Translations under genes and position numbers: made by a program
From: Buxus sempervirens
Lineage: Eukaryota; Streptophyta; Magnoliopsida; Buxales; Buxaceae
Direction: 5' to 3'
NCBI GenBank assembly: GCA_947561395.2
Contig: OX387183.1
Location: 38,236,901-38,300,900, forward strand
Length of the DNA: 64,000 nucleotides
Part shown: positions 21,861 through 57,205 of the stretch, piece after piece
How positions within the stretch are numbered: position 1 is the first letter of the stretch
How the letters are laid out: every line of letters begins with the position of its first letter
Notes under the pieces: model-generated
Databases searched by the model: none
The model's input: the letters and a program-made list of their open reading frames with translations, nothing else
What the model was told of the DNA's origin: nothing

Positions 21861-22003
21861 TGCAGTCCTTTTTCAATGTGAATGCGAAGTGTCTGAATTG
21901 TACCTGCTGATTAAGGATTTCAATCAGTTCTTCCACAAATCACGAATGTGGTGTCGTGTGGGACGAGATCATTACACCGTGAGTGGTGCTCTGGTGCCAT
22001 GAC

Positions 22004-24283
22004 TGTGAGACATGGGAAAAAATCACCGGAGTGATCGTCCCTCCGTCAACACACGGGCTCAACGCAAAAATTGGGAGAGTCGCCACCATTCATGATTTTG
22101 GGGTGAGAACGGACACCAAAGATTCAAAAATAAGCAAAAATAGCCAAAAGACAAATTCTAGGATAAAAATAACCCTACTTGAAAATCAAATCCAGAGATG
22201 GGTAAGGGGATTAGATTATGAACGGGGGAAGGTGTTAGGCACCCCCATTCATCCACACGAAGTGGTTGCCAAGTGTATGTTCATGCGAAAACAAAGTAAG
22301 AAAGCTTGCTAAAAATCATGAGAAACCTTGAAAAAGGAACAAGTGTATGATATATTCACATAAAGATCCAAATGGATTTTAGATCTTCTCTTATGTCAAT
22401 ATCACTTCTGGAGTATTTCAAAAGATGGAAATCAAAGTAGAGGTTGCATAAAACCAAGTTAAATCAAATCCGGAAAATTCGGTAAAAAGTATACCATTTG
22501 CCTTAAAATCATTCAAATCCAATTCTGAATTGAACCAAACCAAATCCATTTGAAAGATTAGGGTAAATAAGAGTCTCATGCAAAATTTCACTTCATTCCA
22601 ATGAAAAATCTAGGAGTTATGCTCCCTTGAAGTTGCTGCTGGGGATTTTTAAAAGTGATAAGTGGGCAACTTTGGAAAATTGTCTAGAAAAATCCACTAT
22701 ATAGAAATCCGTGAAATTTGGTGTGATTGAAGTTTGTATGGCCATCTTTCAAAAGAAACTAGCCTCATACAAAAATCCCTTCGGATGTGCCTTGGGTGGT
22801 CTCCCGAACAGGCCCCGAAGATCACAGATTTACCCAGAAAAGTGCAAATGAGCAGTTCTGAGTAAATCGGCTACCAATAATTCAAATGGAATTCAAAAAT
22901 TATGAAACCAACTGGATTTAAAAATAGACTCATAAAGGAGTACCCAGAAATAAAAATTACTCGAATCGGACTTAAAACGAACACATGGCGGTCCGTCGAA
23001 GTGACAAGTTCTGTACTTGGACCTGAACTGTCCACTTAACTTCGACAGAGAAGTGTCAAAAATCGGCTAGATAGAAATTCATGAAATTTGGTGGACATAA
23101 ACTAGACAGCCTCACCTTTCCCATGGTTCTGGAATCACCCCAAAATTCATCCGGATGATGAAGTTATGGGCGTCCGAAGTAAGGGTACAGGTGCTGTCAA
23201 GCTAAGCCTCCTTTGAAGAAAATCAAATCCGAAAATTGACAAAAAGTGTGTGATTCGTGTGAGATGAATCCAAAACCTTTAAAAAGCATTTTAAAATACT
23301 CCAGAATTTGATTGAGGTCATTTATTTGAGTTTTATCACAATAAATGCAATAATCCCCAAATATGAGCCTATCCCGCCAAAATAGTGATACGTGTGCAAA
23401 AGTGAAAAAAAACCAAGCAAGATCAATACAACATGCATATAGATTCAACAAAATAGGTTCTAGCATAGCCTAGGGTTCCGTTCCATTATCGTTTCCCTCT
23501 GTTCTCTTTAAGATAATCAAGGGTACTTTGAATATGGAACGGTTTACAATCAATCAAAAAGGCCTTATGCTACATGGGTTCTAGCACTAGGGTCAATCCC
23601 CAGTCTCGTTTCTCCTAGATCCGCCTTCACGTTTTACGGCTAGGGGAGTCTTGAGATACTTTGAGCCGGGGAAGGATTTCCACACATACAAAACAAGGCT
23701 TTACACTACAGAAAGGTAGAAGAAGAGATCTAGATCTAGGAATGTAAAGACAGAAAATAAAAAGAAAAGTTGAGGCTTACCTGAGTGCTGGAGGCGATTC
23801 CACAGCGGTTTCCTTCTTCTCTTGGAGTTCTTCTTTGCGAGAATTCAAAACAAGAGTTGTGTGCCATTTGCTCAAGGAGGAGGCTCCTATTTATAGGCAA
23901 GGGCTAAGGTCATTGGTAGACACAACTTAATGTCTAGAACCCCTCCAACCTAAACCCTAAGGTTATTTCCGCGATTTCCCTTCATTTAATGAGGGACATG
24001 ATGGTAAAAGTGAAAAGCCCTCGGAAAACCCTAATTTTGAGCAAACTTAAGGTATCCGGTATATCAGACCGGATAAAAAAGGGCCTTAAGGTATCCGGTA
24101 CATGGTACCGGATACACTAAGGCTCACATGTATCCGGTATGAGTATCCGGATACGAGAAGGAGTACTTGTATCCGGATTGAGTATCCGGATACAGGTAAA
24201 AGTTTATTTTCTTCAAATTCTGTGCTGGCTTTCCAGGAGATAATGATTTTTGATGATTGTTTGTGCAATTTGGGGTGTCTACA
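22004..24283 (-). repeat. Element A 3' LTR
   Basis: It reads TGTGAGACAT...GTCTACA on the plus strand, 2280 bp, and matches 42764-45043 except at six transitions near 22362, 22860, 22893, 23886, 23946 and 23981. It has a minus-strand TATA box, a four-unit palindrome cluster, a splice-donor-like CAG|GTAAGCC and a U5 copy of the first bases of the primer site (22075-22089). Confidence 0.95.
23887..24193 (-). promoter_or_regulatory. Element A U3 promoter: TATA box and 39-bp phased palindromes
   Basis: CTATTTATAG (23887-23896) is CTATAAATAG on the element strand. About 155 bp upstream lie four units of the form GTATCCGG-N9-CCGGATAC starting at 24052, 24091, 24130 and 24169, spaced exactly 39 bp. 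Unit 24091-24115 has perfect 11-bp arms. A minus-strand transcript would start below the TATA box. Confidence 0.85.
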
Positions 24284-24296
24284 ACTGCCCCTCTTT
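24284..24296 (-). other. Element A polypurine tract
   Basis: AAAGAGGGGCAGT lies directly before TGTAGACACC on the element strand. It is the expected plus-strand primer and confirms that 22004-24283 is the 3' LTR. Confidence 0.85.
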
Positions 24297-24679
24297 GCGG
24301 GAGCTGCGAAGTAGTGAGCTGCAAAGAGTAGACAAGCTCAAATTGCATTCCCTTGAGCATGATTTGCTCGGTTCAATTCAATTTCTGTGGAAAACAATTT
24401 TTGAGTGGAGATTTGCCAAAAAGCCCTCACTTTAAGGGGGCATCTCTCCAAGAGTTCTTAAATTCCACTGAGCCCTTTGTGGCTGTGAAGTGGATTTTAA
24501 GCCCAAAAATAGGATTTTTGAAAAACTGATTTTTTTATCAAACCAAGTTGAAAATTGAGTGAATATCATCCTTTTGACCAGGCACATTTCCCAAAGTTGT
24601 CCCAAATTCCATAGAGCTCTCGTGGCTGTGAGGTGGATTTCGAGACAAGAATAGGACCTTGAGAAAATAGAAATTGTAG

Positions 24680-24946
24680 CACAAGTTTGCTTTTTTCTTT
24701 TTTTCTTTTCTCTCTCTTTTTTTTTTCTTTTTCTCTTTTTTTTTTCTTCTTTTCTTTTTTCTTTTCTTCTTTTTTTTATTCTATTTTTCCCTGTTTTTTT
24801 CTCTATTTTTTCTATTTTTTTCTGTTTTTTCTATTTTTTTTTCTTTGGTATCCGGTAAGTGTATCCGGATAATAAAGGGTCTGCGGGTATCCGGCCTGAG
24901 TATCCGGATCCCGCAGGTTTACTTAAGTCGCGCGCGACCGCGACTT
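24680..24946 (+). promoter_or_regulatory. T-rich tract and palindrome cluster upstream of the mobile-domain gene
   Basis: A long T/C tract (about 24688-24845) is followed by palindromes at 24848 and 24887 of the GTATCCGG type. At the next 39-bp step, 24925-24946, is a palindrome with different arms (AAGTCGCG/CGCGACTT). No clear TATA box follows. The cluster lies about 1.2 kb upstream of the ATG at 26118; much of that gap can be a 5' UTR intron (donor 25251, acceptor at 26117). Confidence 0.65.
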
Positions 24947-26117: not shown

Positions 26118-28798
26118 ATGGCTAGGAGTCGTTCCCGAGTTAGAGAGGAGGCTGACCCAGCTGATCAGCCCTCCTCTTCGCGGGCTCGTACGGAGGCGAG
26201 TTCCAGTGCCACCGTGTCGGAGCCATTAGGTGACTCCAGAGAGAGCTCTGCTGAGGTAGGCTTTCAAAAATTTTTCTTTCTTTCTTCTATCTTCTTTCTA
26301 CACAAATCTTCACCTTGTTCTTGAAATTTAGCCCGTGGTTGCACCTGCTCGAGGTCGAGGCCGAGGCAGAGGCAGAGTTCAGGATCAGGCCCCTGAGGGC
26401 GAGAGAGGCCGTGGCAGAGGCCGAGGCAGAGCCAGAGATACGGCTCCGGAGGGGGTTGCTGTAGCCCTTGCAGGAGTTCCTGAGGAGTTGAGGGCCTCTG
26501 TGCATGATACAGAGCTCCTCCATGGCTTGGATAGCCATCCTTCTATGTGCATCAGGGCAGATGTGCCGCTTCCCTATCATTCCTCCCACTTACGAGGTAG
26601 CTGGGGCAGATTTAGTGATCTAGCTCAGTCGCTTTCTCCAGCACTCAGGCGGGAGTTTGGGAGGTGCCACCTGGACCATTTTCTTAGCATCCCATCCTTC
26701 AGAGCCGACCGTCCGCTCATCTTTGCCATGATGGAGAGATACTTCCCAGAGACTCAGTCATTCCACCTGCCGGACGTGGAGCTGGGGATCCGCCCCTCCG
26801 ATTTTGTGATGATTACGGGCATTCCTCTGACGGGGCGGACCATTGTCTTGGAGCGGCCTTCTGCGGAGGATATGGGACTTCTCTTGGGATATCAGGCCCT
26901 GCCACCTACTGCTTGGGATGGGCGGAGCGGCCGGCTCTCCATTAGCTGGCTGCGGGAGAGTCTGGCTCGACATTTTGAGGGGAGACACAGGACTGTGGCT
27001 GTGGATGATGCTGCATTTATTCCTATCTTCCGGCACGTATTCTTGCTGATGCTGGGGAGCTGCTTCTTCCCGGAGGATACTACCGGTGTCAGTCCGCTCT
27101 TTTTGGACGCTTTGAGAGATCTCCATCAGACCCGCCAGCTAGCATGGGGTCGGCTCATCTATGGGACCATCTTGGCCGGGCTGTGCCGAGCGGTTCGAGG
27201 CTTAGCATCTCCGAGAGGTGATGGAGTTAGCAGCCGGTTCTTCTGGCAGATTCTACAGGTATTGCATTCATCTGTCTGGCTTAATTCTTTAGGCTTTTAT
27301 CCTTTCTTGACTGATTATTCTTTTGCTAGGTGTTCATGTACACCTATATGACCTTCTTCCGCCCCTCCCCGGTTCCTGAGGTTGCGGATTTCCCTGTGGC
27401 CCTGCGATGGTCGGCCCAGGTCCGGGATGCTGATAGGAGTCAGCCCCGCACCGCCCGGGTGCACTTAGACCGTGCCCGCCGATCTGATGTAAGCCTTTTA
27501 TCTTTTCCTTTTCTTTTATTTCCTGTTCTGTATTTTGACTGTACCTGACAGTTTCCCTTTTTTGCAGCTCCTTCTGTCCCGATTTGATGACGTGGATGTT
27601 GGGGTGGCTCGTGAGATGGCGGTACAGGACGCCTTCGATAGAGATCGACGACGTCAGCCCTACCAGTGCTTCCTCGGGAGGCTTGGTAGGGTGATGTACT
27701 TAGGAGAGCGTCTGTACTTCCAGCACACCAGCGCACTTCGCATCCCCGTCCCTCCTCCTCCTGTGGGTCCCGACACACTCCTTCCCGGCTTCGACGTGGA
27801 TCAGTTTGATCATTTTCTGGATGCAGAGGGGCTCACAGTAGCCGGAGATTACGACGAGTGGTTCCAGAGGGTGTCTATTGGATGCTTGATGGATCGACCC
27901 ACTCGTGCCGGGGTGACCGAGATCGGCGGGATCCGTATCCGGATCCATGAGGACACCGTAAGTCTTGTACTTTTCATATCTTCATCTTTTCTTCCTTTAT
28001 GTATTTCTGATCCTGCTTCTGTTCTTGCTGGCAGGTACACGAGCTGAATACCATCCGGGACCGGTTTGAGAGTCAGCGGGCCGCGATCGATGATATGATC
28101 GCTGAGCACGATGCGGTCGTGGCCCAGCGGGATGCCCGGATCAGGGAGCTGGAGGCCTTAGTTGCTGAGCTTCAGTCTAGACAGGTATCTGGCCTTCTCA
28201 TATGTTCATTTCTTTCATTATTTTCCTGTTTCTGCTATTCTGATATGCTTGTTTGACTTGTGCAGGGCCCGGTCCATGATCAGGATGCCTTCTTTGAGCA
28301 TGATTTCCTGATTCCTGACCCATCTCCTGCTCGGGCCTCTGATCCCGAGGATGCCCCAGCGGCTGGTCTTGACGAGCCGGATCCTCCGGCTCCTTCTGCA
28401 GACATTCCTGGTATGATCTTCTTTTAATTCTCCTCTTTTATTCTTCCTTATATCTGAGTCTTCTGATTTTTCTCTTTTCTGTGGACTCAGCTACTTCTGA
28501 TCCTGGCCCCTCTGCTGCTGATGCTAGGCCTTCTGGAGCTGCGGGAGCAGAGGATGCTTTGGATGAGGGCCCAGTTGGGCCGGTTGCTGCTGAGCCCGAG
28601 GCTTCTTCCCCAGATTCTACTCCTGCTCCTCCCCCAGATCTCGAGGATTATTGCTTGGAGTATCATCTTCAGCAGGTGGTAGGTCGGCATCCTCGCCATG
28701 CAGCCGAGCGGATCCTTGCATACTCTAGAGGCCGAGCACTTTGGGGGAGAGGCCGTAGAGGTGGACGCGGCCGAGGACGCAGGGATGATCCTGCATAG
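26118..28798 (+). CDS. Plant mobile domain (PMD) protein, antisense gene of element A, seven exons
   Basis: Predicted exons are 26118-26255, 26332-27258, 27330-27488, 27568-27957, 28035-28184, 28266-28410 and 28491-28798. All introns are GT-AG and keep frame, giving 738 residues. The ATG follows directly on an acceptor-like TGTAG. RG-rich stretches lie at residues about 50-82 and at the C-terminus. The plant mobile domain spans about 155-410 (LDHFLSIPSF, FHLPDVELGIRPSDFVMITG, RLIYGTILAGLCRAV). Exon 5 is a short coiled coil; acidic, proline-rich linkers follow. Known PMD proteins are either transposon-encoded or host silencing factors of the MAIN type. The introns run opposite to the element transcript, so they survive retrotransposition. 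Antisense ORFs are known in Tat elements (for example Grande), so the position is precedented; the function is not. RG boxes suggest nucleic-acid binding (inference). Confidence 0.8.
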
Positions 28799-29008
28799 GA
28801 GTAGATTAGGATTTTTTTCATTTTCATGTATTTATATCATCATCCCTGTACAAAACTTCCAGATATATAAAAAAAACTTTTTATTCATTCTATCATGTCT
28901 TGCACATTTTTTGTTCTCAATTTTATGCAATTATTACATGTAAGCAGGTAAAACAGGTAAAAAATTTGGATTTTTTCATCCTTAGCTCTTTTTTTGCATT
29001 TTTTCTCG

Positions 29009-29168
29009 GTATCCGGTCTGACATACCGGATACATTGATTGGTCTTTGTATCCGGTATGTCATACCGGATATTCATGGAACCCTCTGTATCCGGTATACT
29101 TATCCGGATATTACTAAAGCCTTTGTATCCGGTCTGAGTTACCGGATACGTTAAAAGATGCTATAAAT
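29009..29168 (+). promoter_or_regulatory. Promoter of the DUF7745-like gene: four phased palindromes and a TATA box
   Basis: GTATCCGG-N9-CCGGATAY units start at 29009, 29048, 29087 and 29125 (steps 39, 39, 38). CTATAAATG (29161-29169) follows 12 bp after the last unit and about 110 bp before the ATG at 29279. The same palindrome occurs upstream of the LTR TATA box, so both transcription units of the element share a cis element. Confidence 0.8.
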
Positions 29169-29278
29169 GCAACCTGCCTCGGGATTTGAGCATTTTTTAC
29201 GAGTTTTTGAGTTTAGAAACCCCCTTTTTCGCCTTTTTCTTCCTCCTCTTGAGTTCTAGCTTGCTCCCGTCAAATCCA

Positions 29279-30969
29279 ATGGAATCCGGATCATCTTCTG
29301 CCCCCTTACTATCTGTCCACACTGCCTCCCCTGCAAAACAACCTTTTAGATCAAAACCCCCAAATCTCACTAGATACAACCCTGTGGATTCCTTTTACAC
29401 AAGGTGGGTTAACTCTATGACCCTAGATGAGGAGAGGAGATGGGGTACTACCAACCTAGGCCATACCCTGCTCATTCCCAAGGTTCCCTTCAGGTGGGAG
29501 ATTATAGAGGCCATGATTGGTCATTGGGTTCCTGATCTCAACTTGTTCCGTTTTGGGACCCATGAGATGACCCCAACCATTGAGGAGGTGGAAACCATCC
29601 TGGGCCTGAGGTTTGATGAGAAGGTGGTGAATCCACCTCTTAGGCCCAGTTACAAGAAGGAAGCTTCTACTTTTTTGGGCATAGGGAAGAAGGACTTGGG
29701 GGATTCTGACACCCTTTTGACCCTATCTAAGGCTTTTTTGACTGAGAAGCTTTTGAGGGGAGAAGATAAGGAGGCCCGATTCAATGCGTTGACCCTGATA
29801 GTGGTCAACCAGTTGCTTTTCCCACGGGAGGATGACGAGGTGGACTTGGCCTTGATCTCAGTGATATGCCAGGTTCGGGAGAGGGAGAGGTTGGCCCCTA
29901 TGATTTTAGCTGGGATATATCAGGCCTTAACCGACTGCTACAATAGGAAGTCGAAACGCTTCCTAGCATGTGCCCAGATCCTGCAGGTAAAAAAAAATTT
30001 TTTTCTTGCTTTTTGGCTTTCTTTTTGGCTTTTTTTTTCGCTTTTTTTTTTTTTTATACAATGTGCTGACACCTCTCTCTTCCTTTGCAGCTTTGGCTAC
30101 TTGATCATTTGAGCCAGATTGAAGAGATCAATCGACACTTCTTCCCGAGTCTAAAAGTTCCCCTCTTGATGAGCAACAGGGGGTGTCCCGATATTCCAGG
30201 GGGCAAACAGGGCTGGTTCACTTTCTTGGGCTCGCTTCAGGATGACCAGGTGAGATGGCCTGGTACTTATCAGCCTAACGCGGAGACAGTGATTAGCTTC
30301 CGAGACCGCAAATTTTTGATTCTGGCGGGCCTGAAGCATGCAGTGCTGTATCTTCCTCTGCGGGTCCTTCGTCAATTCCGAGCGACCCAGGGGATTATCA
30401 TCCCATGTGGATATGAGGATCGTCTTGGGCCTCTTTCTATGAAGCTGAATGCCTGGTTGATGAAGGAGTGGTCCTATGTCCGCTTTATGCATGGTCCAGT
30501 CTTCTCAGAAGCCCATGTGAAGGATTATCTCTTCTGGATCAAGGAACAGATACAGACTCAGGCCCCGGTACCCGAAGATCCTCCTGTTGTCTTGGCTCCC
30601 ACCTATGAGGACATTCTAGAGTCTGCGCGGGCTTCTCATAAGCGGCTTCAGCAGATATGGGTACGGGAGGCCCAGGAGCTCAGGATACAGGGCGCTTATC
30701 TGGAGAGGCAGCTTGAGGAGCAGATCTCACGCCGCATTGCCGTGGAAGAGAAGCTGGAGGAGCAGAGGCAGGCCCGTTGCTTCGAGGTCCGTATGATCCG
30801 GCAGAAGTACCAGGATACTTTGGCCAGCCTTAGGAGTATGCGGATCAAGCAGGCCCTTTCAGATGAGGTCATTTCCTTCTTGAGTGATCCCGCTGCAGAG
30901 GGGGCTTCAGGAGTCATTGCAGCTCAGGCAGCTCGGATTCGGGAGCTTGAGGAGCGGCTAGGAGACTAG
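29279..30969 (+). CDS. DUF7745-like coiled-coil protein, antisense gene of element A, two exons
   Basis: Exons 29279-29986 and 30091-30969 are joined by a GT-AG intron whose removal links RFLACAQILQ to LWLLDHLSQ, giving 528 residues. Residues about 65-380 resemble the plant transposon-associated DUF7745 family (LNLFRFGTHEMTPTIEEVE, LLFPREDDEVDLALIS, the CAQ-LQLWLL junction). Residues about 405-528 are a charged heptad-rich coiled coil (LERQLEEQISRRIAVEEKL, ARIRELEERL), which suggests oligomerisation. The first in-frame ATG is at 29279, downstream of a TATA box. The gene is in tandem with the mobile-domain gene and tail-to-tail with pol. The family name is from memory; biochemical function is unknown. 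Confidence 0.72.
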
Positions 30970-31910: not shown

Positions 31911-34900
31911 TCAAGGAAAATACCTTTTTACCGCATCAGAGTTAATGGGCTCAGGAAAATCTGACCCATCCATTTCTGCTAAGATGAGTGCACCCCCTGA
32001 CAGTACTTTCTTGACGACATATGGGCCTTCCCAATTGGGCTTGAACTTACCACGAGGATCTTCCAAAAATGGTAGAATTTTCTTTAGCACTAAGTTTCCT
32101 TCTTGGAAAGTTCTGGGCCTCACTTTCTTATTGTAAGCCCGGGCCATTCTCTTCTGGTACAACTGTCCATGGCAAAGCGCTTTCAATCGCTTTTCTTCTA
32201 TCAGGTTAAGTTGATCATGTCTCGACTGGACCCATTCGGCTTCTTCTAGTTCTGCTTCCATGAGCACTCGGAGTGATGGGATCTCCACTTCCACGGGCAA
32301 GACTGCTTCCATCCCATAGACTAGGGAGTACGGGGTTGCCCCAGTTGAAGTCCGGATCGAGGTTCTGTATGCATGCAGAGCAAGTGGTAGCATTTCATGC
32401 CAATCTTTGTAACTCACTACCATCTTCTGAATGATTTTCTTTATATTCTTGTTTGCTGCTTCCACTGCCCCATTCATCTTTGGCCTGTACGGAGCTGACT
32501 TATGATGGGTGATCTGAAACTGCTCACACATTTTCTTCATGTCCTTGTTCTTAATATTTGAAGCATTGTCTGATACTATAGCATTTGGCAGTCCATAGCG
32601 ACAAATGATATTGTGCTTCAAAAATTTGATCACATGGTTGCTTGTGATATTTGCATATGATGCTGCTTCCACCCACTTAGTGAAGTAGTCAATCGCCACC
32701 AGGATGAATCTATGTCCGTTCGATGCCTTAGGGGAGATCATGCCGATGACATCTATGCCCCACATAGAGAAGGGCCAGGGTGATGTCATGTTGTGCAGCT
32801 CACCTGGGGGTGCATGCTTGTTATCTGCATAGATTTGGCATTGATGGCACCTCCTGACATGTACACAGCAATCATGCTCCATGGTTGTCCAGTAGTATCC
32901 CAGCCTCAGGATCTTCTTAGCCAGCATGTGCCCACTCATATGGGGCCCACAGACTCCTCCATGTACAGTCTCAATCAGCCTTTCCGATTCCGCCTTGGCA
33001 ACACATCTTAGCAGAATGTCGTTATGTGACCTTTTGTACACATGTCCACCACTTAGCAAAAACTGACCCGCCAATCTCTGTATTGTCCTCTTCTCAGTAG
33101 CAGTGGCATTTTCTGGCAAACTCCGATTGTTCAAGAAATTTTTGATATCTTGAAACCATGGTGTTTCTTCTTCTGGTGCTCCCTCTAGAACAAGACAGTA
33201 AGCCGGTTCATCTCTAACCTCAATTTCCAGCGGTCTGATGTCTACTCCTTCTGGTATGCTGACCATTGAAGCTAATGTTGCTAGAGCATCCGCAAACTGA
33301 TTCTTGGCCCTTGGCATATAGTTGAAGGAAATTCGAGTGAAATTTGTGCTTATTTCTTCCAAATACTGGTGATAGGGGATCAATTTGTGATCCTTGGTTT
33401 TCCACTCACCAGTTGTTTGGAAGATGATAAGACTCGAATCCCCGTATACGTCAAGTTCCTCTACTCCATGATCCATGGCTGCTTGCAATCCAATTATGCA
33501 TGCCTCATATTCTGCTATGTTATTGGTGCACTGGAATCTCAGCTTTACTGCAATTGGGATGTGTGAACCATCTGGTTTAACCAAGACTGCCCCTATTCCG
33601 TTCCCATTCATATTGGCGGCCCCATCGAAGAACATCTGCCAAGAACTCTCACTGTCCTCCTCTTCAGTGTACAGAATTGCCTCATCTGGGAAGTTGGTCT
33701 TCAAGGGTTGATATTCTGGCAGAGGATGTGCAGCCATGTGATCAGCTATGGCTTGACCCTTGATCGCCTTCTGGGTGATGTATGTGAGGTCAAACTCGGA
33801 TAGTAGCAGTTGCCACTTAGCCGTTCTGCCAGTCAATGCCGGTTTCTCAAATAAATACTTCAGCGGGTCCATCCGGGATATCAATAGTGTGGAGTGACTA
33901 AGGAAGTAATGCCTTAACCTCTGAGTGGCCCACACTAGAGCACAGCAAGTCTTCTCCAATGGTGAGTATTTGGCTTCATATTCCGTGAATTTTTTACTCA
34001 GATAGTAAATTGCCCTTTCTTTTCTACCAGTCTCATCATGTTGCCCCAAGACACATCCCATCGACGTTTCCAACACTGACAAGTACAGGATCAGCGGTCT
34101 TCCTGGAGTTGGTGGCACTAGTACCGGTGGGTTCAGCAAATACCTCTTTATTGTATCAAATGCCTGTTGGCAGTCCTCATTCCAGACCGTCGGGTTATCT
34201 TTTCTCAAAAGTTTGAAAATTGGTTCACAGATAGCAGTGAGCTGTGCTATGAACCGGCTTATGTACTGAATTCTTCCAAGAAAGCCCCTGACCTCCTTCT
34301 CGGTTCTGGGTGCTGGCATTTCAATTATGGCCTTGGCTTTAGCCGGGTCAATTTCAATTCCTCTTCGGCTCACTATAAACCCCAGTAACTTCCCTGATGT
34401 AGCCCCAAAGACGCATTTAGCCGGGTTAAGCCGTAGACTGTACTTCCTGAGCCGATCAAACACTTTCTTCAGATTGATCAAGTGGTCCTCCTCTTTGCAT
34501 GATTTGGCAATCATATCATCCACGTAGACCTCCATCTCCTTGTGGATCATGTCATGGAATAGTGCAGTCATTGCCCGCTGGTATGTTGCCCCAGCGTTCT
34601 TAAGCCCAAACGGCATGACTGTGTAGTGGAATGTGCCCCAAGGTGTGATAAATGCTGTTTTCTCTTGATCTTCCTTAGCCATCTTGATCTGATTATATCC
34701 CGAGAAGCCATCCATGAAGGAAAACAGGCTATGTACCGCCGTATTATCGACCAGAATGTCGATGTGTGGAAGCGGAAAATCGTCCTTTGGGCTTGCCTTG
34801 TTCAAATCTCTGTAATCCACGCACATTCGGACCTTCCCGTCCTTCTTTGGTACTGGCACTATGTTTGCGAGCCACTCAGGGTACGTAGAGACTGCCAAAA

Positions 34901-35498
34901 ATCCAGCTTGAAATTGTTTGACCACTTCGTCCTTGACCTTCAGAGTCCACTCAGGTTTCAATCTTCTCAGCTTCTGCTTAATCGGCTTAACCCCTGGCAA
35001 AATTGGCAACCTGTGCACCACCATGTCAGTGTCCAACCCCGGCATGTCCCGATACGACCAAGCAAACACATCCTTGTAATCTGCCAAGAACAGTGACATT
35101 TCATTCTTCTGCACATCAGACAAGCATGACCCGATTTTTACAATTTTTGGGTCATCTTTGGTCCCAAGATTTATGGATATGGTCTCCTCAATATTAGGTT
35201 GGACCCCCTTTTCATGACGTTCCAATTGGTATTCAATTTCTTTTGGAACGTCTTCTTCTTCGACCTCAGTCTCTTCTTCAACCCCCATGAGATCAAAGTC
35301 GAGCTCAAGGTCGAAGTCATATTCAACCTGGTCCAATTCGGTCTGATTATATGGTTCATAAGTGGTTTGGACCTTTTTGAAAAATTTAAACTTTCTAGAA
35401 AAAATAGAAAAATCTTTTTGGTTTTTTTGTGGGCCTTCTAAACATAATTCCCCTGAAGACGAAGGCCCATTAGAACCTTCAGGGAAATGGCATTCCAC
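31911..35498 (-). CDS. pol: Element A pol: reverse transcriptase, two RNases H, integrase
   Basis: This is a 1195-codon open frame without disabling stops. RT spans about residues 200-420, with YVDD at 325-328. A first RNase H follows at about 465-590; it looks degenerate because the first acidic position reads LYLSV. The archaeal-type RNase H at about 619-745 keeps D624, E663, D687 and D737. Integrase has the zinc motif H846/H853/C884/C887 and D916, D977, E1013 with exactly 35 residues between the last two. The C-terminal part resembles the usual GPY-type region (KPNWEGPYVVKKVLSGGAL). The frame has no ATG at its start: it overlaps the gag-pro end by 20 nt in another frame, so expression needs a shift, splicing or slippage at an A8 run (35507-35514). 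All key catalytic residues are present. Confidence 0.95.
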   Translation of the reverse strand: MECHFPEGSNGPSSSGELCLEGPQKNQKDFSIFSRKFKFFKKVQTTYEPYNQTELDQVEYDFDLELDFDLMGVEEETEVEEEDVPKEIEYQLERHEKGVQPNIEETISINLGTKDDPKIVKIGSCLSDVQKNEMSLFLADYKDVFAWSYRDMPGLDTDMVVHRLPILPGVKPIKQKLRRLKPEWTLKVKDEVVKQFQAGFLAVSTYPEWLANIVPVPKKDGKVRMCVDYRDLNKASPKDDFPLPHIDILVDNTAVHSLFSFMDGFSGYNQIKMAKEDQEKTAFITPWGTFHYTVMPFGLKNAGATYQRAMTALFHDMIHKEMEVYVDDMIAKSCKEEDHLINLKKVFDRLRKYSLRLNPAKCVFGATSGKLLGFIVSRRGIEIDPAKAKAIIEMPAPRTEKEVRGFLGRIQYISRFIAQLTAICEPIFKLLRKDNPTVWNEDCQQAFDTIKRYLLNPPVLVPPTPGRPLILYLSVLETSMGCVLGQHDETGRKERAIYYLSKKFTEYEAKYSPLEKTCCALVWATQRLRHYFLSHSTLLISRMDPLKYLFEKPALTGRTAKWQLLLSEFDLTYITQKAIKGQAIADHMAAHPLPEYQPLKTNFPDEAILYTEEEDSESSWQMFFDGAANMNGNGIGAVLVKPDGSHIPIAVKLRFQCTNNIAEYEACIIGLQAAMDHGVEELDVYGDSSLIIFQTTGEWKTKDHKLIPYHQYLEEISTNFTRISFNYMPRAKNQFADALATLASMVSIPEGVDIRPLEIEVRDEPAYCLVLEGAPEEETPWFQDIKNFLNNRSLPENATATEKRTIQRLAGQFLLSGGHVYKRSHNDILLRCVAKAESERLIETVHGGVCGPHMSGHMLAKKILRLGYYWTTMEHDCCVHVRRCHQCQIYADNKHAPPGELHNMTSPWPFSMWGIDVIGMISPKASNGHRFILVAIDYFTKWVEAASYANITSNHVIKFLKHNIICRYGLPNAIVSDNASNIKNKDMKKMCEQFQITHHKSAPYRPKMNGAVEAANKNIKKIIQKMVVSYKDWHEMLPLALHAYRTSIRTSTGATPYSLVYGMEAVLPVEVEIPSLRVLMEAELEEAEWVQSRHDQLNLIEEKRLKALCHGQLYQKRMARAYNKKVRPRTFQEGNLVLKKILPFLEDPRGKFKPNWEGPYVVKKVLSGGALILAEMDGSDFPEPINSDAVKRYFP

Positions 35499-38400
35499 TA
35501 TTGGAGTTTTTTTTGGAAGCCACGTCAGTTTGCCGAACTAACGTTGCTTCAAAAGTAAGGGGAGTTTCCTCCCAATTGTTCAGTACAAAATTTTGGGGAG
35601 CAGGGGAAATAGGGAAAACCCGCTCCTCAAGCCCAGCATCCGATGCCATCATCACCGGGTGGGTACTGCCCTTTTTTGCTGCGGGGCCCAGTTCAGAAAT
35701 GACCTTGTCTGGAACCTTTACTGCGGCCCAGTCAATGAATGGTAGTTCCATGTCTACCCCTGTCTTTTCGCCCTCAGTCATGGTGAAGAATGCACCAACA
35801 TCTTCAGAAAAGTCCACCTGCTGATCGGGCTGTGGTCCAGGCCCATCCACTGCTCCCAGTATTAGAGATGGGTTATAGGGTTGTAGGGCCGAAACAGAAG
35901 GCTTTTGAAATGGGTTGACATTGTAGTAGGGAGGTTTTGATTGGTCCATAGGAGGAGAAATTTGGATTATATAAGCGGGTTTAGGGAAACTTTCCCTTAA
36001 ATGAGGGAGTTTTCCTTTGCTTCTGCTCTCCCCTTCTTCGTGCTTCATTCTTCTCCAGCCTCTGGGCTTGAAGCCCAACCCTACCCTTGGGACTAGTTTC
36101 TTAGCCGTGATTGGCTCCACCATACCCTGCAGATTGATCCCCAAGCCTTTCCCTGGGTAAAAGTGGTATTTCTCCATCACTTTCTTGACCATTTTTTCTG
36201 CAGTGGTCCCTTTTTCCTTCTTTTTCTCACACCCCCCAGGTATGTAATTTACCGCCTCAAATTGAAATGAGTGGAATGCAATCTTGTCGACAGTCAAGTC
36301 CACATTGATTAATGGTACATCAGGTGACACAATGGGCGGCACCAAGTTTTCGGCTAGGACTGTTATCACCCTTTGCCCTCTTATGTATTTCACCCTCTGG
36401 TGGAGCGTGGATGGTATTGCCCTAGCCGAATGTATCCACGGCCTCCCTAGGAGCAGATTGAAGGCTGCGGGTATATCCATCACCTCAAATGTGATGTTAA
36501 AGATATTCGGCCCAATTGTGACCGGCAGTTCAATCTCCCCTAGGGAGTGGGTCTTGGAGCTATCAAAAGCCCTCACTATCCGCCCATTTCGTTTGATCCT
36601 TGACTGGTCCAGACCCAGCTTGGTAAAAGTGATTAACGGGCAAACGTTTAATGCCGACCCGTTGTCAATTAAAACCCGTGCAACCATGCAGCCCTTACAA
36701 AGCACAGTGATGTGCAAAGGGTCCACATGATAACACCCACTTGGGCTGATCTCACCCTCTGAGAAACTTATCACATTATGTGACAAGATTTGACCAACCA
36801 TTTTACCAAGCTGGTCTGGATCAATGGTCTGGGATACGTGTGCACTCTGTAGCACCCTTAACAATGCATCCCTATGCTTTTCGGAATTCAGCAAAAGGCC
36901 CAGTATTGAAATCTGGGCCGGGACCTTGTTCAGCTGATCCACAAGATTAAATTCACTTTTCTTTATGATTTTTATGAGGTCGGCTGCCTCATTTTCTGCA
37001 CCCTGGGGGGTGTCTTCTCCCACTTTATTTTTTCCCTTCTGTTTTCTTTTTTCTTCATTCTCTTTTTCTATTTTTTCTTTTTCTACTTCTGTCTCTTTCT
37101 CTTTCTCTTCACCCCCTGCACATCTCCCTGACCTCGTCATGAGGTTCACCTCCTCCTGGTTCTGGTTCCTGACCATTGGAACCGTAGCCGTGATTCCCTC
37201 GCTGTAGTTCCATGGTACAGCGGCCTCTGAATAGGCTAATTTAGGGATGTCAACCACTAGTGGCTGGAGTTTGGACCGGGATGTATGGGCCGGTTTAGGG
37301 ATAGTATGGGCTGGCTGCACATTTACAACCAAGGGTTGAAGTTTGGATTTGGTGGGGACAGAAGAAGTGATGGAAGCAGTGGTGGGGTCAAGATTGATGA
37401 CCAGTGGAGCCTTGGACGGCTTGGATGGAGAATAAGTGGGTGGACTGCAATTGAAGACCAATGGGGGTCTTGCAGTATTTATCTGGGCCATCAGAGAAGA
37501 GACCCGGTTTAAGGAGGAGCTTATGTCCTCAGCAGCAAGATTATTTTTTTGGGAGACCATGTTGATCTCCTCTTCGTCCTCCTCTGGGAAAAAATGGACC
37601 TGGACAGTGGTCCCCACAGGTGCTATAAGCTGAGATGGGTCAAAGGCCCTTCTCGTGGTGGATATGGCAGTGATGGAGTTGGATGGGCCTGCCCCATTGT
37701 GGTAAGGCAGAGGGTTCTGCCCAATATCGTTCCCAGACTGGGCCGGTGCAGCAGTGTTAAAGACCAACGCCTTCTGGTCCAACAGGTCCTGGACCGCATG
37801 CTTCAATACCCAGCAGGTATCGGTAGAATGCCCCGGTGCACCCATGTGGAAATCACAGGTGACCGATGTGTCAAAATTTCTCCCCTTCGGGGCATTTGGG
37901 TTAGGCTCCTTCAGAGTCAAGTATTCCCCTTTCAGTAGGGTTGGCAGTAGTTGGGACAGCGATATGGGTAGAGGGGTGAAAACCCGGTTCTTTCTTGCTG
38001 CGAACCAGGCATCCCGCTCCTCCTTAGAAAAAGTCCTCCTTGTGTTAGCTGGCACGGAAGGAGAGAAGTTGACATTCAGCGGGGTCTGGTACGACTGCTG
38101 GGCCTGCTGGGCCTGTTGGGGTGCCGAGATGTTGACGTGCAGTGGCTTCTTGGCTGGAGGAGCCTGGACCAGGTTCACCTCCCCTTCTTTTCGGGCCCCC
38201 GTCTTTTTGAATCCGGCCCCTTTCTTTTGGGCCATGGAGGCCGAGGAATCAGACTGCCCAGTCAGAGTAGAGTAGTCTATCAGCCTTCCTGATCTGACCC
38301 CTTCTTCAATCCGGTCCGCTACCTGCACTAGGGCTGCAAAGTTGGTGGTGATCTGACCCACCAGATGGTTGTAAAAGGGCTGCCCTAGTGTGCCCATAAA

Positions 38401-39006
38401 TGTGGAGATCATCTCCGGTTCTTGCATAGGTGGCCTGACTTGGGAGGCGGCCTCTCTCCATCTCTTGGCGTACTGCCGTACCGGTTCATCTTTTCCCTTG
38501 GTCATCCTCATCATGTCGTACCGGTCTGGCACGATCTCCGAGTTGAACTTGTACTGGTCCAGGAAAGCGTCGGCTAGGTCCTTCCACCTCCTGATCCTTC
38601 CATGGTCCACTGTAGCGAACCACCGAAGGGCTGACCCGGTCAGACTCCTCTGGAAGAGCTGGATCAGTATGCCATCATCCCGGCCAAACTGGCACAGGGC
38701 CCCGCAGTATAGTTTCAGATGGCTTAATGGGCAGCCCGTGCCATCAAACTTGTCAAAATCCGGGCACCTGAACTTAGCCGGTAGACAGACGTCCGGGTAC
38801 ATGCACAGGTCCTCGAAGGTGGTGCCTGCATGGCTGCCTCCCCCCTTCACTTCCTTCAGCTCTGCCTGGATCCTCTCTATCCTGAGCAGCATTTTCTTTT
38901 CCATCTCATCCCTAGCCTTTTCTTTTTCCAGCTCTTTCTCAGACTCTACTGTATTTTCCCTGATCAGAATGGGCTCAGGGACTGGTTCAGAAATGGGCTC
39001 AGGCAT
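35479..39006 (-). CDS. gag-pro: Element A gag-pro polyprotein
   Basis: This is a 1175-residue open frame. The Gag capsid-like region is about residues 64-245 (FDGTGCPLSHLKLYCGALC, LFQRSLTGSALRWF, VRQYAKRWREAASQVRPPM). The zinc motif C384/H387/H393/C398 is followed by LKHAVQDLLDQ. A linker at about 510-600 has four PLVxN/D repeats, then a lysine/glutamate-rich stretch. The aspartic protease has the active-site variant D781-N-G and LLLGRPWIH at about 851-859. A G-patch-like segment lies at about 950-983 (GKGLGINLQG, RVGLGF). The true Gag start is probably 39207: that N-terminal part is in the same frame, cut off by one TAG (39034-39036). The ATG at 39006 is only the first one after that stop. 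It ends in TGA at 35479-35481. Confidence 0.93.
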   Translation of the reverse strand: MPEPISEPVPEPILIRENTVESEKELEKEKARDEMEKKMLLRIERIQAELKEVKGGGSHAGTTFEDLCMYPDVCLPAKFRCPDFDKFDGTGCPLSHLKLYCGALCQFGRDDGILIQLFQRSLTGSALRWFATVDHGRIRRWKDLADAFLDQYKFNSEIVPDRYDMMRMTKGKDEPVRQYAKRWREAASQVRPPMQEPEMISTFMGTLGQPFYNHLVGQITTNFAALVQVADRIEEGVRSGRLIDYSTLTGQSDSSASMAQKKGAGFKKTGARKEGEVNLVQAPPAKKPLHVNISAPQQAQQAQQSYQTPLNVNFSPSVPANTRRTFSKEERDAWFAARKNRVFTPLPISLSQLLPTLLKGEYLTLKEPNPNAPKGRNFDTSVTCDFHMGAPGHSTDTCWVLKHAVQDLLDQKALVFNTAAPAQSGNDIGQNPLPYHNGAGPSNSITAISTTRRAFDPSQLIAPVGTTVQVHFFPEEDEEEINMVSQKNNLAAEDISSSLNRVSSLMAQINTARPPLVFNCSPPTYSPSKPSKAPLVINLDPTTASITSSVPTKSKLQPLVVNVQPAHTIPKPAHTSRSKLQPLVVDIPKLAYSEAAVPWNYSEGITATVPMVRNQNQEEVNLMTRSGRCAGGEEKEKETEVEKEKIEKENEEKRKQKGKNKVGEDTPQGAENEAADLIKIIKKSEFNLVDQLNKVPAQISILGLLLNSEKHRDALLRVLQSAHVSQTIDPDQLGKMVGQILSHNVISFSEGEISPSGCYHVDPLHITVLCKGCMVARVLIDNGSALNVCPLITFTKLGLDQSRIKRNGRIVRAFDSSKTHSLGEIELPVTIGPNIFNITFEVMDIPAAFNLLLGRPWIHSARAIPSTLHQRVKYIRGQRVITVLAENLVPPIVSPDVPLINVDLTVDKIAFHSFQFEAVNYIPGGCEKKKEKGTTAEKMVKKVMEKYHFYPGKGLGINLQGMVEPITAKKLVPRVGLGFKPRGWRRMKHEEGESRSKGKLPHLRESFPKPAYIIQISPPMDQSKPPYYNVNPFQKPSVSALQPYNPSLILGAVDGPGPQPDQQVDFSEDVGAFFTMTEGEKTGVDMELPFIDWAAVKVPDKVISELGPAAKKGSTHPVMMASDAGLEERVFPISPAPQNFVLNNWEETPLTFEATLVRQTDVASKKNSNSGMPFP

Positions 39007-39033
39007 GGGCTGAGCCGGAGGCGGAATATAGGC

Positions 39034-39207
39034 CTAAGGTGGTGGTGCCGGATGAGAAGTCGACGCCTGATTTTGGGCTTGGCCCTGTTGGGCCTGAGCC
39101 GCTAGTAAGTCTCCCAGCATTTTGGCCAGACCGGCCACTTGCTCCTGCAGCTGAGTAAAGTCCTGAGCGGGGACGGTAGCTTGGGCTTGGTTCTCTTCAG
39201 TATTCAT
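39034..39207 (-). CDS. gag: N-terminal part of element A Gag, ending at an in-frame TAG
   Basis: From the ATG at 39205-39207 (MNTEENQAQ) the frame runs to TAG at 39034-39036; nine codons later the same frame continues as the gag-pro ORF. Element D has the corresponding sequence (SRAHAMDP, then a Q/A-rich stretch, PAPPPQINIPPP) with a glutamine codon where A has the stop. A single C-to-T change would explain it. Upstream, TTTTTACTCAG at about 39274 looks like a splice acceptor, so the frame before the ATG is probably leader. Confidence 0.75.
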   Translation of the reverse strand: MNTEENQAQATVPAQDFTQLQEQVAGLAKMLGDLLAAQAQQGQAQNQASTSHPAPPP

Positions 39208-39423
39208 GGCTCTTGCTTTGGATCTGGTCACGGGAGCAATGACTGCAAATAAGTGCACCTGGGTTGAATGTACCTGAGTAAAAAATGAATAGAACATGTT
39301 AGCTTCCATTTAACTTGAGTCACACCCCTATATATGTAAACCAGTAGGTTAGGTGAACACCAATCCAGATTTTTTTGTTTTTTTTTTGTTTTTTTTGTTT
39401 TTTTTTTGTTGTTTTGATTTTGT

Positions 39424-40806
39424 GTTGGAATATTCTAGGGCTTCCAAGGGTCCCATAATTTTTTTTGATTTGATTGATAAAAATAACCAACCAAGGTTTT
39501 CATGGAATATTCTAGGGCTTCCAAGGGTCCCAATTTTTTTTGATTTGATTGATAAAAATAACCAACCAAGGTTTTTATGGAATATTCTAGGGCTTCCAAG
39601 GGTCCCAAGTTTTTTTTTTTTTTGATTTGATTGATAAAAATAACCAACCAAGGTTTTCATGGAATATTCTAAGGCTTCCAAGGGTCCCAATTTTTTTTTT
39701 TTTTGATTTGATTGATAAAAATAACCAACCAAGGTTTTCATGGAATATTCTAGGGCTTCCACGTGTCCCACAAATGTTTTGATTTGATTGATAAAAATAA
39801 CCAACCAAAGGTGTCTTGGAATATTCTAGGGCTTCCAAGTATCCCACAAATGTTTTGATTTGATTGATAAAAATAACCAACCAAAGGTGTCTTGGAATAT
39901 TCTAGGGCTTCCAAGTATCCTACAAATGTTTTGATTTGATTGATAAAAATAACCAACCAAAGGTGTCTTGGAATATCCTAGGGCTTCCAAGTATCCCACA
40001 AATGTTTTGATTTGATTGATAAAAATAACCAACCAAAGGTGTCTTGGAATATTCTAGGGCTTCCAAGTATCCCACAAATGTTTTGATTTGATTGATAAAA
40101 ATAACCAACCAAAGGTGTCTTGGAATATTCTAGGGCTTCCAAGTATCCCACAAATGTTTTGATTTGATTGATAAACATAACCAACCAAAGGTGTCTTGGA
40201 ATATTCTAGGGCTTCCAAGTATCCCACAAATGTTTTGATTTGATTGATAAAAATAACCAACCAAAGGTGTCTTGGAATATTCTAGGGCTTCCAAGTATCC
40301 CACAAATGTTTTGATTTGATTGATAAAATAACCAACCAAAGGTGTCTTGGAATATTCTAGGGCTTCCAAGTATCCCACAAATGTTTTGATTTGATTGATA
40401 AAAATAACCAACCAAAGGTTTTCATTTTTTTTTTTTTGTGATTGATAAAAATAACCAACCAAGGTTTTCATGGAATATTCTAGGGCTTCCAAGTGTCCCA
40501 CTTTTTTTTGATTTGATTGATAAAAATAACCAACCAAGGTTTTCATCATTTTTTTTTTGATTTGATTGATAAAAATAACCAACCAAGGTTTTCATGGAAT
40601 ATTCTAGGGCTTCCAAGTGTCCCACTTTTTTTGATTTGATTGATAAAAATAACCAACCAAGGTTTTCATCATTTTTTTTATTTGATTTGATTGATAAAAA
40701 TAACCAACCAAGGTTTTCATGGAATATTCTAGGGCTTCCAAGTGTCCCACTTTTTTTGATTTGATTGATAAAAATAACCAACCAAGGTTTTCATCATTTT
40801 TTTTTA
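39424..40806 (-). repeat. 76-bp tandem array in the element A leader
   Basis: About 18 copies contain GGAATATTCTAGGGCTTCC, then GATTTGATTGATAAAAATAA and CCAACCAA. The middle copies (about 39749-40400) are nearly identical at exactly 76 bp; outer copies vary in T-run length. Because 76 is not a multiple of three, open frames appear in all three phases, so they do not indicate a protein. A different array occupies the same place in element D. Confidence 0.92.
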
Positions 40807-41104
40807 TTTGAAATCTGATGCATTTTAGAAGATTTTCAAGTTCTAAAGCTGGATTGACATATGTTTGAGTTGAGTTGGTGTAAAAAAATATGACACCTTG
40901 GTTTCCTCTTTGATTTTCAAACTTAGGTTAAATCCTGAAAGAATATTTTATTTTATTCTTTTTTTGTTTTTTTTTTCTTTGATTTTGTATTTTTGGGAAA
41001 ATTTCTTATGTTCTTTTCGGGGTGCCTAAGGATTATCCACAGTGTTTTAGGCATTTTATTCTGAAAATTTGGGCTGAACAGCCAATTTGTGCCCTTTTTT
41101 GAAT

Positions 41105-41245
41105 GTATCCGGTATAATATACCGGATAAGATATGCCTTATTGTATTCGGTCAATCTATCCGGATATGCGTATATGTCTTTGTATCCGGATATATGTACC
41201 GGATATGAATACAGTTATTATTAACCGGCCTGAGTTGCCGGTTAT
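41105..41245 (-). promoter_or_regulatory. Leader palindrome cluster of element A
   Basis: Units start at 41105, 41143, 41182 and 41221 (steps 38, 39, 39). The first three have GTATCCGG-type arms; the fourth has TAACCGG/CCGGTTA. It lies on the gag side of the conserved leader block and before the 76-bp array. Element D has a cluster in the same order relative to its array and gag. Confidence 0.8.
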
Positions 41246-41379
41246 TGCCGAAATGACCCTTTTTGACTCATTTTTTCACCAGATTTGATTTTTTTTCATT
41301 CCCAATTGATGTTCACCTTAATTTGACCTTCAAAACTTGCCCCAAATTGGGCTTGGACATTATATTTGCAAAATCCCCA

Positions 41380-42743: not shown

Positions 42744-42761
42744 TCCCCAGCAGAGTCGCCA
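42744..42761 (-). other. Element A primer binding site (tRNA-Arg type)
   Basis: TGGCGACTCTGCTGGGGA lies two bases after the 5' LTR end on the element strand. It differs by one base from the complement of the plant tRNA-Arg(ACG) 3' end as I know it. Element D has the identical site; element B has the C version. Confidence 0.85.
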
Positions 42762-42763
42762 GT

Positions 42764-45043
42764 TGTGAGACATGGGAAAAAATCACCGGAGTGATCGTCC
42801 CTCCGTCAACACACGGGCTCAACGCAAAAATTGGGAGAGTCGCCACCATTCATGATTTTGGGGTGAGAACGGACACCAAAGATTCAAAAATAAGCAAAAA
42901 TAGCCAAAAGACAAATTCTAGGATAAAAATAACCCTACTTGAAAATCAAATCCAGAGATGGGTAAGGGGATTAGATTATGAACGGGGGAAGGTGTTAGGC
43001 ACCCCCATTCATCCACACGAAGTGGTTGCCAAGTGTATGTTCATGCGAAAACAAAGTAAGAAAGCTTGCTAAAAATCATGAGAAACCTTGAAAAAGGAAC
43101 AAGTGTATGATATATTCACATGAAGATCCAAATGGATTTTAGATCTTCTCTTATGTCAATATCACTTCTGGAGTATTTCAAAAGATGGAAATCAAAGTAG
43201 AGGTTGCATAAAACCAAGTTAAATCAAATCCGGAAAATTCGGTAAAAAGTATACCATTTGCCTTAAAATCATTCAAATCCAATTCTGAATTGAACCAAAC
43301 CAAATCCATTTGAAAGATTAGGGTAAATAAGAGTCTCATGCAAAATTTCACTTCATTCCAATGAAAAATCTAGGAGTTATGCTCCCTTGAAGTTGCTGCT
43401 GGGGATTTTTAAAAGTGATAAGTGGGCAACTTTGGAAAATTGTCTAGAAAAATCCACTATATAGAAATCCGTGAAATTTGGTGTGATTGAAGTTTGTATG
43501 GCCATCTTTCAAAAGAAACTAGCCTCATACAAAAATCCCTTCGGATGTGCCTTGGGTGGTCTCCCGAACAGGCCCCGAAGATCACAGATTTACCCAGAAA
43601 AGTGCAAATGAGCAGTTCTAAGTAAATCGGCTACCAATAATTCAAATGGAATCCAAAAATTATGAAACCAACTGGATTTAAAAATAGACTCATAAAGGAG
43701 TACCCAGAAATAAAAATTACTCGAATCGGACTTAAAACGAACACATGGCGGTCCGTCGAAGTGACAAGTTCTGTACTTGGACCTGAACTGTCCACTTAAC
43801 TTCGACAGAGAAGTGTCAAAAATCGGCTAGATAGAAATTCATGAAATTTGGTGGACATAAACTAGACAGCCTCACCTTTCCCATGGTTCTGGAATCACCC
43901 CAAAATTCATCCGGATGATGAAGTTATGGGCGTCCGAAGTAAGGGTACAGGTGCTGTCAAGCTAAGCCTCCTTTGAAGAAAATCAAATCCGAAAATTGAC
44001 AAAAAGTGTGTGATTCGTGTGAGATGAATCCAAAACCTTTAAAAAGCATTTTAAAATACTCCAGAATTTGATTGAGGTCATTTATTTGAGTTTTATCACA
44101 ATAAATGCAATAATCCCCAAATATGAGCCTATCCCGCCAAAATAGTGATACGTGTGCAAAAGTGAAAAAAAACCAAGCAAGATCAATACAACATGCATAT
44201 AGATTCAACAAAATAGGTTCTAGCATAGCCTAGGGTTCCGTTCCATTATCGTTTCCCTCTGTTCTCTTTAAGATAATCAAGGGTACTTTGAATATGGAAC
44301 GGTTTACAATCAATCAAAAAGGCCTTATGCTACATGGGTTCTAGCACTAGGGTCAATCCCCAGTCTCGTTTCTCCTAGATCCGCCTTCACGTTTTACGGC
44401 TAGGGGAGTCTTGAGATACTTTGAGCCGGGGAAGGATTTCCACACATACAAAACAAGGCTTTACACTACAGAAAGGTAGAAGAAGAGATCTAGATCTAGG
44501 AATGTAAAGACAGAAAATAAAAAGAAAAGTTGAGGCTTACCTGAGTGCTGGAGGCGATTCCACAGCGGTTTCCTTCTTCTCTTGGAGTTCTTCTTTGCGA
44601 GAATTCAAAACAAGAGTTGTGTGCCATTTGCTCAAGGAGGAGGCTTCTATTTATAGGCAAGGGCTAAGGTCATTGGTAGACACAACTTAATGTCTAGAAC
44701 CCCTCTAACCTAAACCCTAAGGTTATTTCCGCGATTTCCCCTCATTTAATGAGGGACATGATGGTAAAAGTGAAAAGCCCTCGGAAAACCCTAATTTTGA
44801 GCAAACTTAAGGTATCCGGTATATCAGACCGGATAAAAAAGGGCCTTAAGGTATCCGGTACATGGTACCGGATACACTAAGGCTCACATGTATCCGGTAT
44901 GAGTATCCGGATACGAGAAGGAGTACTTGTATCCGGATTGAGTATCCGGATACAGGTAAAAGTTTATTTTCTTCAAATTCTGTGCTGGCTTTCCAGGAGA
45001 TAATGATTTTTGATGATTGTTTGTGCAATTTGGGGTGTCTACA
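42764..45043 (-). repeat. Element A 5' LTR
   Basis: 2280 bp, with the same ends as 22004-24283. It holds the TATA box (44647-44656), the palindrome cluster (44812-44953) and the predicted splice donor (44541/44540). The primer site follows directly on the element strand. Confidence 0.95.
44647..44953 (-). promoter_or_regulatory. Element A 5' LTR promoter
   Basis: CTATAAATAG on the element strand at 44647-44656, with four 39-bp phased palindromes starting at 44812, 44851, 44890 and 44929. This is the copy that would drive the genomic RNA. Confidence 0.85.
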
Positions 45044-45048
45044 ATGAC

Positions 45049-57203: not shown

Positions 57204-57205
57204 AC

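Follow-up and report, generated by a model that had tools for sequence, protein, structure and literature searches.

Phased palindromic arrays with a family-specific two-base code at separate sites of Tat/Ogre-like elements in Buxus sempervirens, candidate targets of a trans-acting factor

In the plant long terminal repeat (LTR) retrotransposons Tnt1 and Tto1, repeated boxes of the U3 region are bound by host factors, and we know of no recurrence of these boxes at accessory-gene promoters. The Spm/En element encodes its own binder, TnpA, which recognizes repeated subterminal motifs and relieves silencing. Here we describe a window of 64,000 nucleotides from Buxus sempervirens (assembly GCA_947561395.2, contig OX387183.1, positions 38,236,901 to 38,300,900) that contains element A (22004-45043 of the window, minus strand), a Tat/Ogre-like element of about 23 kb flanked by the 5-bp duplication ATGAC. 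Phased palindromes recur in the U3 of both its LTRs, in its leader and upstream of its two antisense genes, and neighbouring families carry arrays at comparable places, which the first-pass annotation had missed, with the same core and two other bases. The arrays resemble the Spm/En system if an element-encoded protein binds them; Spm/En differs as a CACTA DNA transposon with another motif and another protein.

In excerpts of two reports on VANC and the Mutator-like VANDAL elements (Hosaka 2017, PMC5735166; Sasaki 2023, PMC10398659), short family-specific motifs are clustered in non-coding DNA, related families have different motifs and coevolution with the element-encoded protein is proposed. 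A family-specific repeated motif in non-coding DNA was found here as well. The same excerpts describe a DNA transposon with same-orientation 9-mers, whereas the present case is an LTR retrotransposon with phased N11 palindromes and PMD/DUF7745 genes, for which we infer binding. The foamy-virus regulator Tas, as outlined in part of PMC8670036, is similar in that the accessory gene has an internal promoter and the regulator serves both this promoter and the LTR, and differs in belonging to an animal retrovirus, whereas A has accessory genes in antisense orientation and repeats in the form of phased palindromes. The arrays may work like both systems, and membership in either would go beyond the likeness. 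Retand with its antisense TRP28 shares with A the Ty3/gypsy affiliation and antisense genes between pol and the 3′ LTR; in the portion of the paper concerned (Vicient 2025, PMC11963269) a role as DNA-binding regulators is suggested for these open reading frames (ORFs), their function is left open and no target sites are described, both occurrences of 'palindrom' belonging to the title of a reference. The genes of A differ in matching PMD and DUF7745, and a comparison of their spliced products with Pfam gave no PF04195 (TRP28) match up to E = 1. The presence of PMD in plant Gypsy elements is already known, according to part of PMC9289625. Among the matches listed in a search of the open literature, titles and abstract openings do not report such arrays.

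The unit of element A reads GTATCCGG-N9-CCGGATAC, and its five groups lie where the first-pass annotation had placed them. On the minus strand, the U3 of the 5′ LTR holds four units at 39-bp steps (44812-44953), upstream of the TATA box at 44655, with a counterpart in the 3′ LTR (24052-24193). On the plus strand, two units lie upstream of gene 1 (24848-24911) and four upstream of gene 2 (29009-29149). The leader array (41105-41245, minus strand) combines three units of this kind with a fourth, degenerate one (41221-41245, AACCGG...CCGGTT) that was absent from the earlier list. A sixth array (8914-9055) occurs in a solo LTR of a related A subfamily (6841-9145, minus strand, 83% identity). The reported 39-bp step with rare 38 also holds, the groups at gene 2 and in the leader each having a single step of 38. 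Their reported place beside every promoter is confirmed by sequence at the LTR, where 156 bases separate array and TATA box, and at gene 2, whose TATA-like box TATAAATG at 29162 begins 12 bases past the last unit; the promoter of gene 1, whose array lies about 1.2 kb upstream of the ATG, is presumed, and no promoter is known for the leader array.

At up to 3 mismatches, 22 unit matches occur in the window, against 0.09 expected and at most 1 in any of 100 shuffles; 21 of them belong to the arrays, the lone one (30794, 3 mismatches) being within gene 2. In the 676.5-Mb genome, to which all genome-wide counts refer, the exact unit occurs 20,444 times and its reversed control 0 times. The spacer is exactly N9 in 20,444 of 20,703 half-site pairs with a gap of 0-30 (98.7%), all other gaps adding 259. 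Outward gaps, read from 50 distinct pairs among those listed (13,009 in the genome), measure 14 in 34 cases, 13 in 2 and 27 in 14; gaps of 27 come from the same arrays read with a 13-bp offset. When groups of at least two units were collected from 50 sources, 72 of 76 had steps of 39 (155), 38 (38) and 37 (1) only, and the remaining four contain an additional 4-mismatch match. Among the 266 units in groups, 92 are perfect and 152 carry one mismatch, and 153 of the 209 mismatches sit at the outermost base of either arm. As a separate observation, each unit has two CpGs 13 bp apart and the step of A is three times 13, which places its half-sites on a 13-bp lattice.

The concern that spacing and pairing might be no better than in shuffled sequence is removed by these figures. 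The concern that other copies might lack the units does not hold either: at 30 gene-2 loci picked by protein match and not by units, which as the best protein matches (L005-L034) are young copies, the array is present in 29: four units in 28, three in one, and a single unit at L008. Of 20 further stretches, 17 were picked around units or around places of A-type gene 2, and this sample cannot tell how often A copies lack arrays.

Within each array of A, the half-sites are the least variable part. The mean pairwise differences in half-site, N9, N14 and flank are 5.1, 32.5, 27.6 and 9.2% in the U3 (n = 14), 2.4, 4.2, 13.7 and 5.5% at gene 2 (n = 36), 1.4, 15.6, 16.7 and 33.5% at gene 1 (n = 9), and 4.5, 16.4, 10.8 and 8.3% in the leader (n = 7). 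One-sided Fisher tests on variable columns give P = 2e-10 (U3), 0.003 (gene 2), 0.0005 (gene 1) and 0.003 (leader), values that are descriptive because the sequences are related. In the U3 the spacers are about three times as variable as the flank (27.6-32.5% against 9.2%). Judged from these comparisons, the array is a fast-turning structure whose half-sites are held. Such rapid spacer turnover could be expected of tandem repeats that spread neutrally, by slippage and conversion, and tandem repeats are often found in plant Gypsy elements, as stated in part of PMC11963269. Neutral repeats would not account for half-sites that change more slowly than spacers and flanks in all four arrays, nor for a core geometry that is maintained among families with different steps; this explanation was already disfavoured and is extremely improbable. 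CpG decay in LTR pairs had no power as a methylation readout, eight pairs differing by 0-0.64%; CpG transitions affect 1 of 160 sites within half-sites, as against 14 of 735 beyond the array, or 1 of 142 and 7 of 640 when a ninth pair (E8, 5.5% difference, probably not the pair of one element) is left out.

The arrays of the different families share the frame XXCCG-N11-CGGX'X', in which XX is AT in A and in the solo LTR of its subfamily, AA in D and G, and GC in B and C. All six families or subfamilies read have the CCG-N11-CGG core in common. In 15 array slices, picked by eye once the arrays had been seen, XX is complementary in 38 of 43 intact cores, all five exceptions belonging to B and C; elsewhere in the window, the distances of CCG...CGG pairs do not peak at 11 (8 pairs). 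The exact GC-code unit TACGGGC-N7-GCCCGTA occurs 7,417 times genome-wide (control 0) and the AA-code unit AACCGCA-N7-TGCGGTT 3,706 times (control 2); mixed-code units, AACCGTA-N7-TACGGGC (370), were set aside, as they have no fair expectation. Codes are nearly exclusive per LTR, C having one AA-like unit (3 mismatches) among its GC units, and the code agrees wherever several arrays of one element were read: in A across U3, leader and both genes, in B between U3 and leader (one degenerate copy), in D between two clusters of one LTR, and in G between U3 and gene 2 (one element with letters). In all seven leaders scanned, the fourth unit of A has AA/TT, with an altered core in one (L039); having the AA code of D and G on both arms, it may be a relic or a second specificity in A. 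It was also observed that the unit centre often resembles CTGAGTAT in A, D and G.

Families C and D allow the code to be compared position by position. C has U3 arrays of GC code upstream of its TATA box (54310-54497, minus strand), and those of D (49092-49315, minus strand), of AA code, occupy positions aligned with them. Of 11 half-sites marked in either, eight can be recognized in C and D alike, and in 8 of 8 neither XX base is shared, while the LTRs are 23% diverged outside half-sites; the CCG core differs at two of the eight, in each case by C to T in C. Of the other three, C lacks one, D lacks another, and the third reads CGATT in C and CGGTT in D. Each LTR also has a second cluster about 0.8 kb downstream of the TATA box, two GC-code units in C (53374-53450, minus strand) and AA-code units with a 28-bp step in D (48232-48308, minus strand), so that in several families the arrays may flank the start site.

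Family B, whose LTR (about 55393-57204) is akin to that of A at its end and around the TATA box, carries its U3 array in the same place (55496-55600, plus strand), upstream of a TATA box at about 55801. This array is GC-like (GCCCG-type) with a 28-bp step and partly degenerate. The B leader array (58480-58600, plus strand) is also GC-like, with a 28-bp step and degenerate, and has GC on both arms in one of three intact cores. Element G interrupts the intron of gene 2 in an A copy (L053 from 8558), and its U3 has AACCG half-sites (L053 8671-8936); a diverged gene 2 with AACCG half-sites upstream (L054 5498-5622) was assigned to the same element by strand and distance. The letters of family G come from this one element, other G elements being known by place alone. 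Identity between the proteins of G and A is 91% for pol and 75%/63% for gene 2. D and G have the same code in different LTR lineages.

In the window, a motif-blind scan for phased inverted repeats recovered seven of these arrays along with a single simple tandem repeat (58947); 10 block-shuffled windows gave no match. It was a 60-bp-step match in L053 that led to element G; other matches were a 19-bp-step repeat near gene 1 (L038, L040, L049) and a 49-bp tandem repeat (L050).

The first-pass annotation had left open whether the partner binds DNA or RNA, and the evidence leans to DNA. An alternative role is that of RNA hairpins serving packaging, export or translation of genomic or antisense RNAs: every unit could fold in this way, and full-length RNA would include the arrays of the leader, the accessory genes and the 3′ U3. 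The symmetric double change in the leader's fourth unit fits this role too. Nearly all units of a family, however, have one and the same XX, for which pairing alone creates no need, and the outermost pair is rarely compensated: 136 of 145 changed units are altered on one side (45 as G-T, which RNA could pair), and an A-T double change occurs in two. Moreover, arrays lie upstream of TATA boxes. Hairpins are accordingly very unlikely to be what the units are for. By contrast, read-out by a protein dimer has the signature seen here: two-fold symmetry, an invariant spacing at the centre, a conserved core, and two bases that vary in concert at separate sites. The likeness to iterons, suggested earlier, stands in look alone; no replication role was seen in the Pfam scans, to which the search for one was confined.

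The code is also linked to the accessory gene. Genome-wide, A-type gene-2 starts (ATGGAATCCGG) have AT units 115-145 bp before them in 480 cases and AA units in 0, and G-type starts (ATGGCTTCTGG) have AA units in 108 and AT units in 4. Agreement between the distant arrays of one element is more telling than this adjacent linkage. Four G-type starts fall within the part of C1 covered by the list of AA units. One of them has AA units at -15,753, +170 and +5,275 bp, which is the layout of A, and a second has them at -18,439, -18,379 and +170. The GC code ahead of a gene-2-like start gave 1 match, and one exact GC unit lies 14 kb from a G-type start (C1:9445724 vs 9459680).

That one partner could act on all transcription units of the element gains support from the same code at a family's separate arrays, differing between families at several places at once. 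The concerted change of XX would be most simply explained by an element-encoded factor, with genes 1 and 2 as candidates, and a PMD or DUF7745-like protein is a plausible partner. Nevertheless, plant LTR retrotransposons offer a precedent for host factors, as Tnt1 and Tto1 have repeated U3 boxes upstream of the TATA box and differ in relying on such factors. The arrays might likewise be ordinary U3 enhancers, present also at other promoters, the families having adapted to different factors of one host family. The occurrence of the GC code in two LTR lineages (B, C) and of AA in two (D, G) is what host factors would give, although code sharing fits host and element-encoded factors alike; with the latter it would reflect borrowing or convergence, for instance by elements that lack the genes. 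Host factors explain less readily why all codes share the N11 geometry and differ at the same two bases across the separate arrays of a family, and they give no obvious reason why matching differences go with a diverged accessory gene. We consider them somewhat unlikely, though a serious rival.

We lean, by a narrow measure, towards the arrays being sites for a dimeric trans-acting factor, likely the product of an antisense gene, that works in a positive and family-specific loop. That they are DNA sites for a trans factor is highly probable; granted this, an element-encoded factor is somewhat favoured, and if the factor is element-encoded, positive regulation would be a fairly safe assumption. 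The sequences show the arrays, their geometry, the held half-sites, a code that agrees among the arrays of the elements read, and its linkage to the gene; we infer protein binding, a dimer, an element-encoded binder and activation or anti-silencing. A sequence-specific protein, bound as a two-fold symmetric dimer, would occupy the clustered XXCCG-N11-CGGX'X' sites and act in trans on the leader and on the promoters of the LTR and of both antisense genes. The most likely binder would be a product of these genes, a PMD or DUF7745/PMD protein with coiled-coil-like segments, which would activate or un-silence its own genes and the LTR of copies with the right code. Families would diverge through the two XX bases, presumably together with the specificity of the protein, each acquiring a private key, along the lines put forward for VANC proteins and VANDAL transposons.

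The same sites and binder could instead serve repression, as autoregulation or copy-number control. The palindromes by the gene-2 TATA-like box (unit end 29149, box 29162) are indeed operator-like, but the LTR arrays, 156 bases upstream of the TATA box, resemble upstream activating sites, and recent amplification is unlike strong self-repression: LTR pairs are young (0-0.64% in eight pairs) and gene 2 has at least 150 near-identical copies. This number follows from a search with exon 1 of gene 2, in which the best 150 of 5,693 first-look candidates were scored and all showed 99-100% identity, 147 without a stop. Repression by the element's own protein is therefore clearly unlikely.

Several observations weigh against an element-encoded, family-specific positive loop. 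The motif-blind scan misses the two-unit gene-1 array and the D U3, C and B-leader arrays, and is blank in L054, whose G gene-2 array is irregularly stepped. Four of 112 G-type starts are preceded by the AT code, for two of the four C1 starts the adjacent AA unit is the sole exact one within 25 kb, and code-gene linkage could arise by descent alone, since code and gene sequences are adjacent. B is poor evidence, being degenerate and with GC on both arms in 2 of 5 intact cores, and the CGATT of C facing CGGTT in D is a D flank with a broken core. By similarity to the proteins of A, the C copy of the window has gag and no pol or accessory gene; this element (11408-22003) may be non-autonomous. 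The gene 2 of L054 has a stop in exon 1, and structure prediction for the DUF7745 exon was unusable (pLDDT 39 from 4 sequences).

In giant Ty3/gypsy elements of plants, the favoured loop would provide the antisense accessory genes with a short and definite DNA target, whose specificity is predicted to switch among AT, AA and GC. If true, a self-directed regulatory code could take a retrotransposon family to thousands of copies and keep sister families independent. Beyond this species, it is possible, though short of probable, that plant LTR retrotransposons run their own sequence-specific transcription system, in which antisense PMD/DUF7745 proteins bind phased palindromes at every transcription unit, related families arrive at private two-base codes within one fixed dimer geometry, and gene-less elements exploit the codes of others.

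As to the remaining structure of A, the 3′ LTR (22004-24283, minus strand; duplication at 21999-22003) and 5′ LTR (42764-45043, minus strand; duplication at 45044-45048) are 99.74% identical, and a primer-binding-site-like TGGCGACTCTGCTGGGGA begins at 42761 and runs down, next to the 5′ LTR. Both antisense genes lie on the plus strand between pol and the 3′ LTR. Gene 1 (26118-28799) has seven exons as read here and 738 amino acids, with PMD (PF10536, E 8.7e-19), RG-rich ends and a coiled-coil-like segment. Gene 2 (29279-30969; exons 29279-29986 and 30091-30969) encodes 528 amino acids with DUF7745 (2.5e-25)/PMD (4.9e-20) and a coiled-coil-like C-terminus. As regards a VANC-family protein, the Pfam scan of both genes, with no direct VANC comparison, listed besides PMD/DUF7745 only weak coiled-coil matches. 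A homologue search for gene 2 scored 7,998 candidates and found 2 proteins at E up to 0.001, a number too small for a test against a protein tree, and the sole match in the PDB search was a keratin chain (E 0.35).

On the minus strand, the gag ORF (35479-39033) contains Retrotrans_gag and G-patch domains and is preceded in the same frame by an ORF of 91 amino acids (39034-39309), the two being divided by a stop at 39034-39036. The pol ORF (31911-35537, minus strand) encodes reverse transcriptase, RNase H (RT_RNaseH/RT_RNaseH_2), a second RNase H (RVT_3) and integrase. These gag/pol domains, including the two kinds of RNase H, are the reason for likening A to Tat/Ogre Ty3/gypsy elements, a second RNase H being a marker of the Tat clade in the excerpt of PMC9289625.

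Some further features of the window were recorded. The solo LTR at 6841-9145 sits in a C LTR and is flanked by GGTCT/GGTTT, a 5-bp duplication with one mismatch. Two CG-rich inverted repeats do not follow the CCG-N11-CGG core, GGGCGC-N7-GCGCCC with 22/30/33-bp steps at 46493-46651, and ATGCGCTCAGC...GCTGAGCGCAT at 49917-49945, beside a TATA-like TTTTATAGGC; they were set aside and are possibly further codes of other LTR families. Finally, long tandem arrays lie between the leader palindromes and gag in A (39421-40811, 76-bp period) and in B (58739-59240, 40-bp period).

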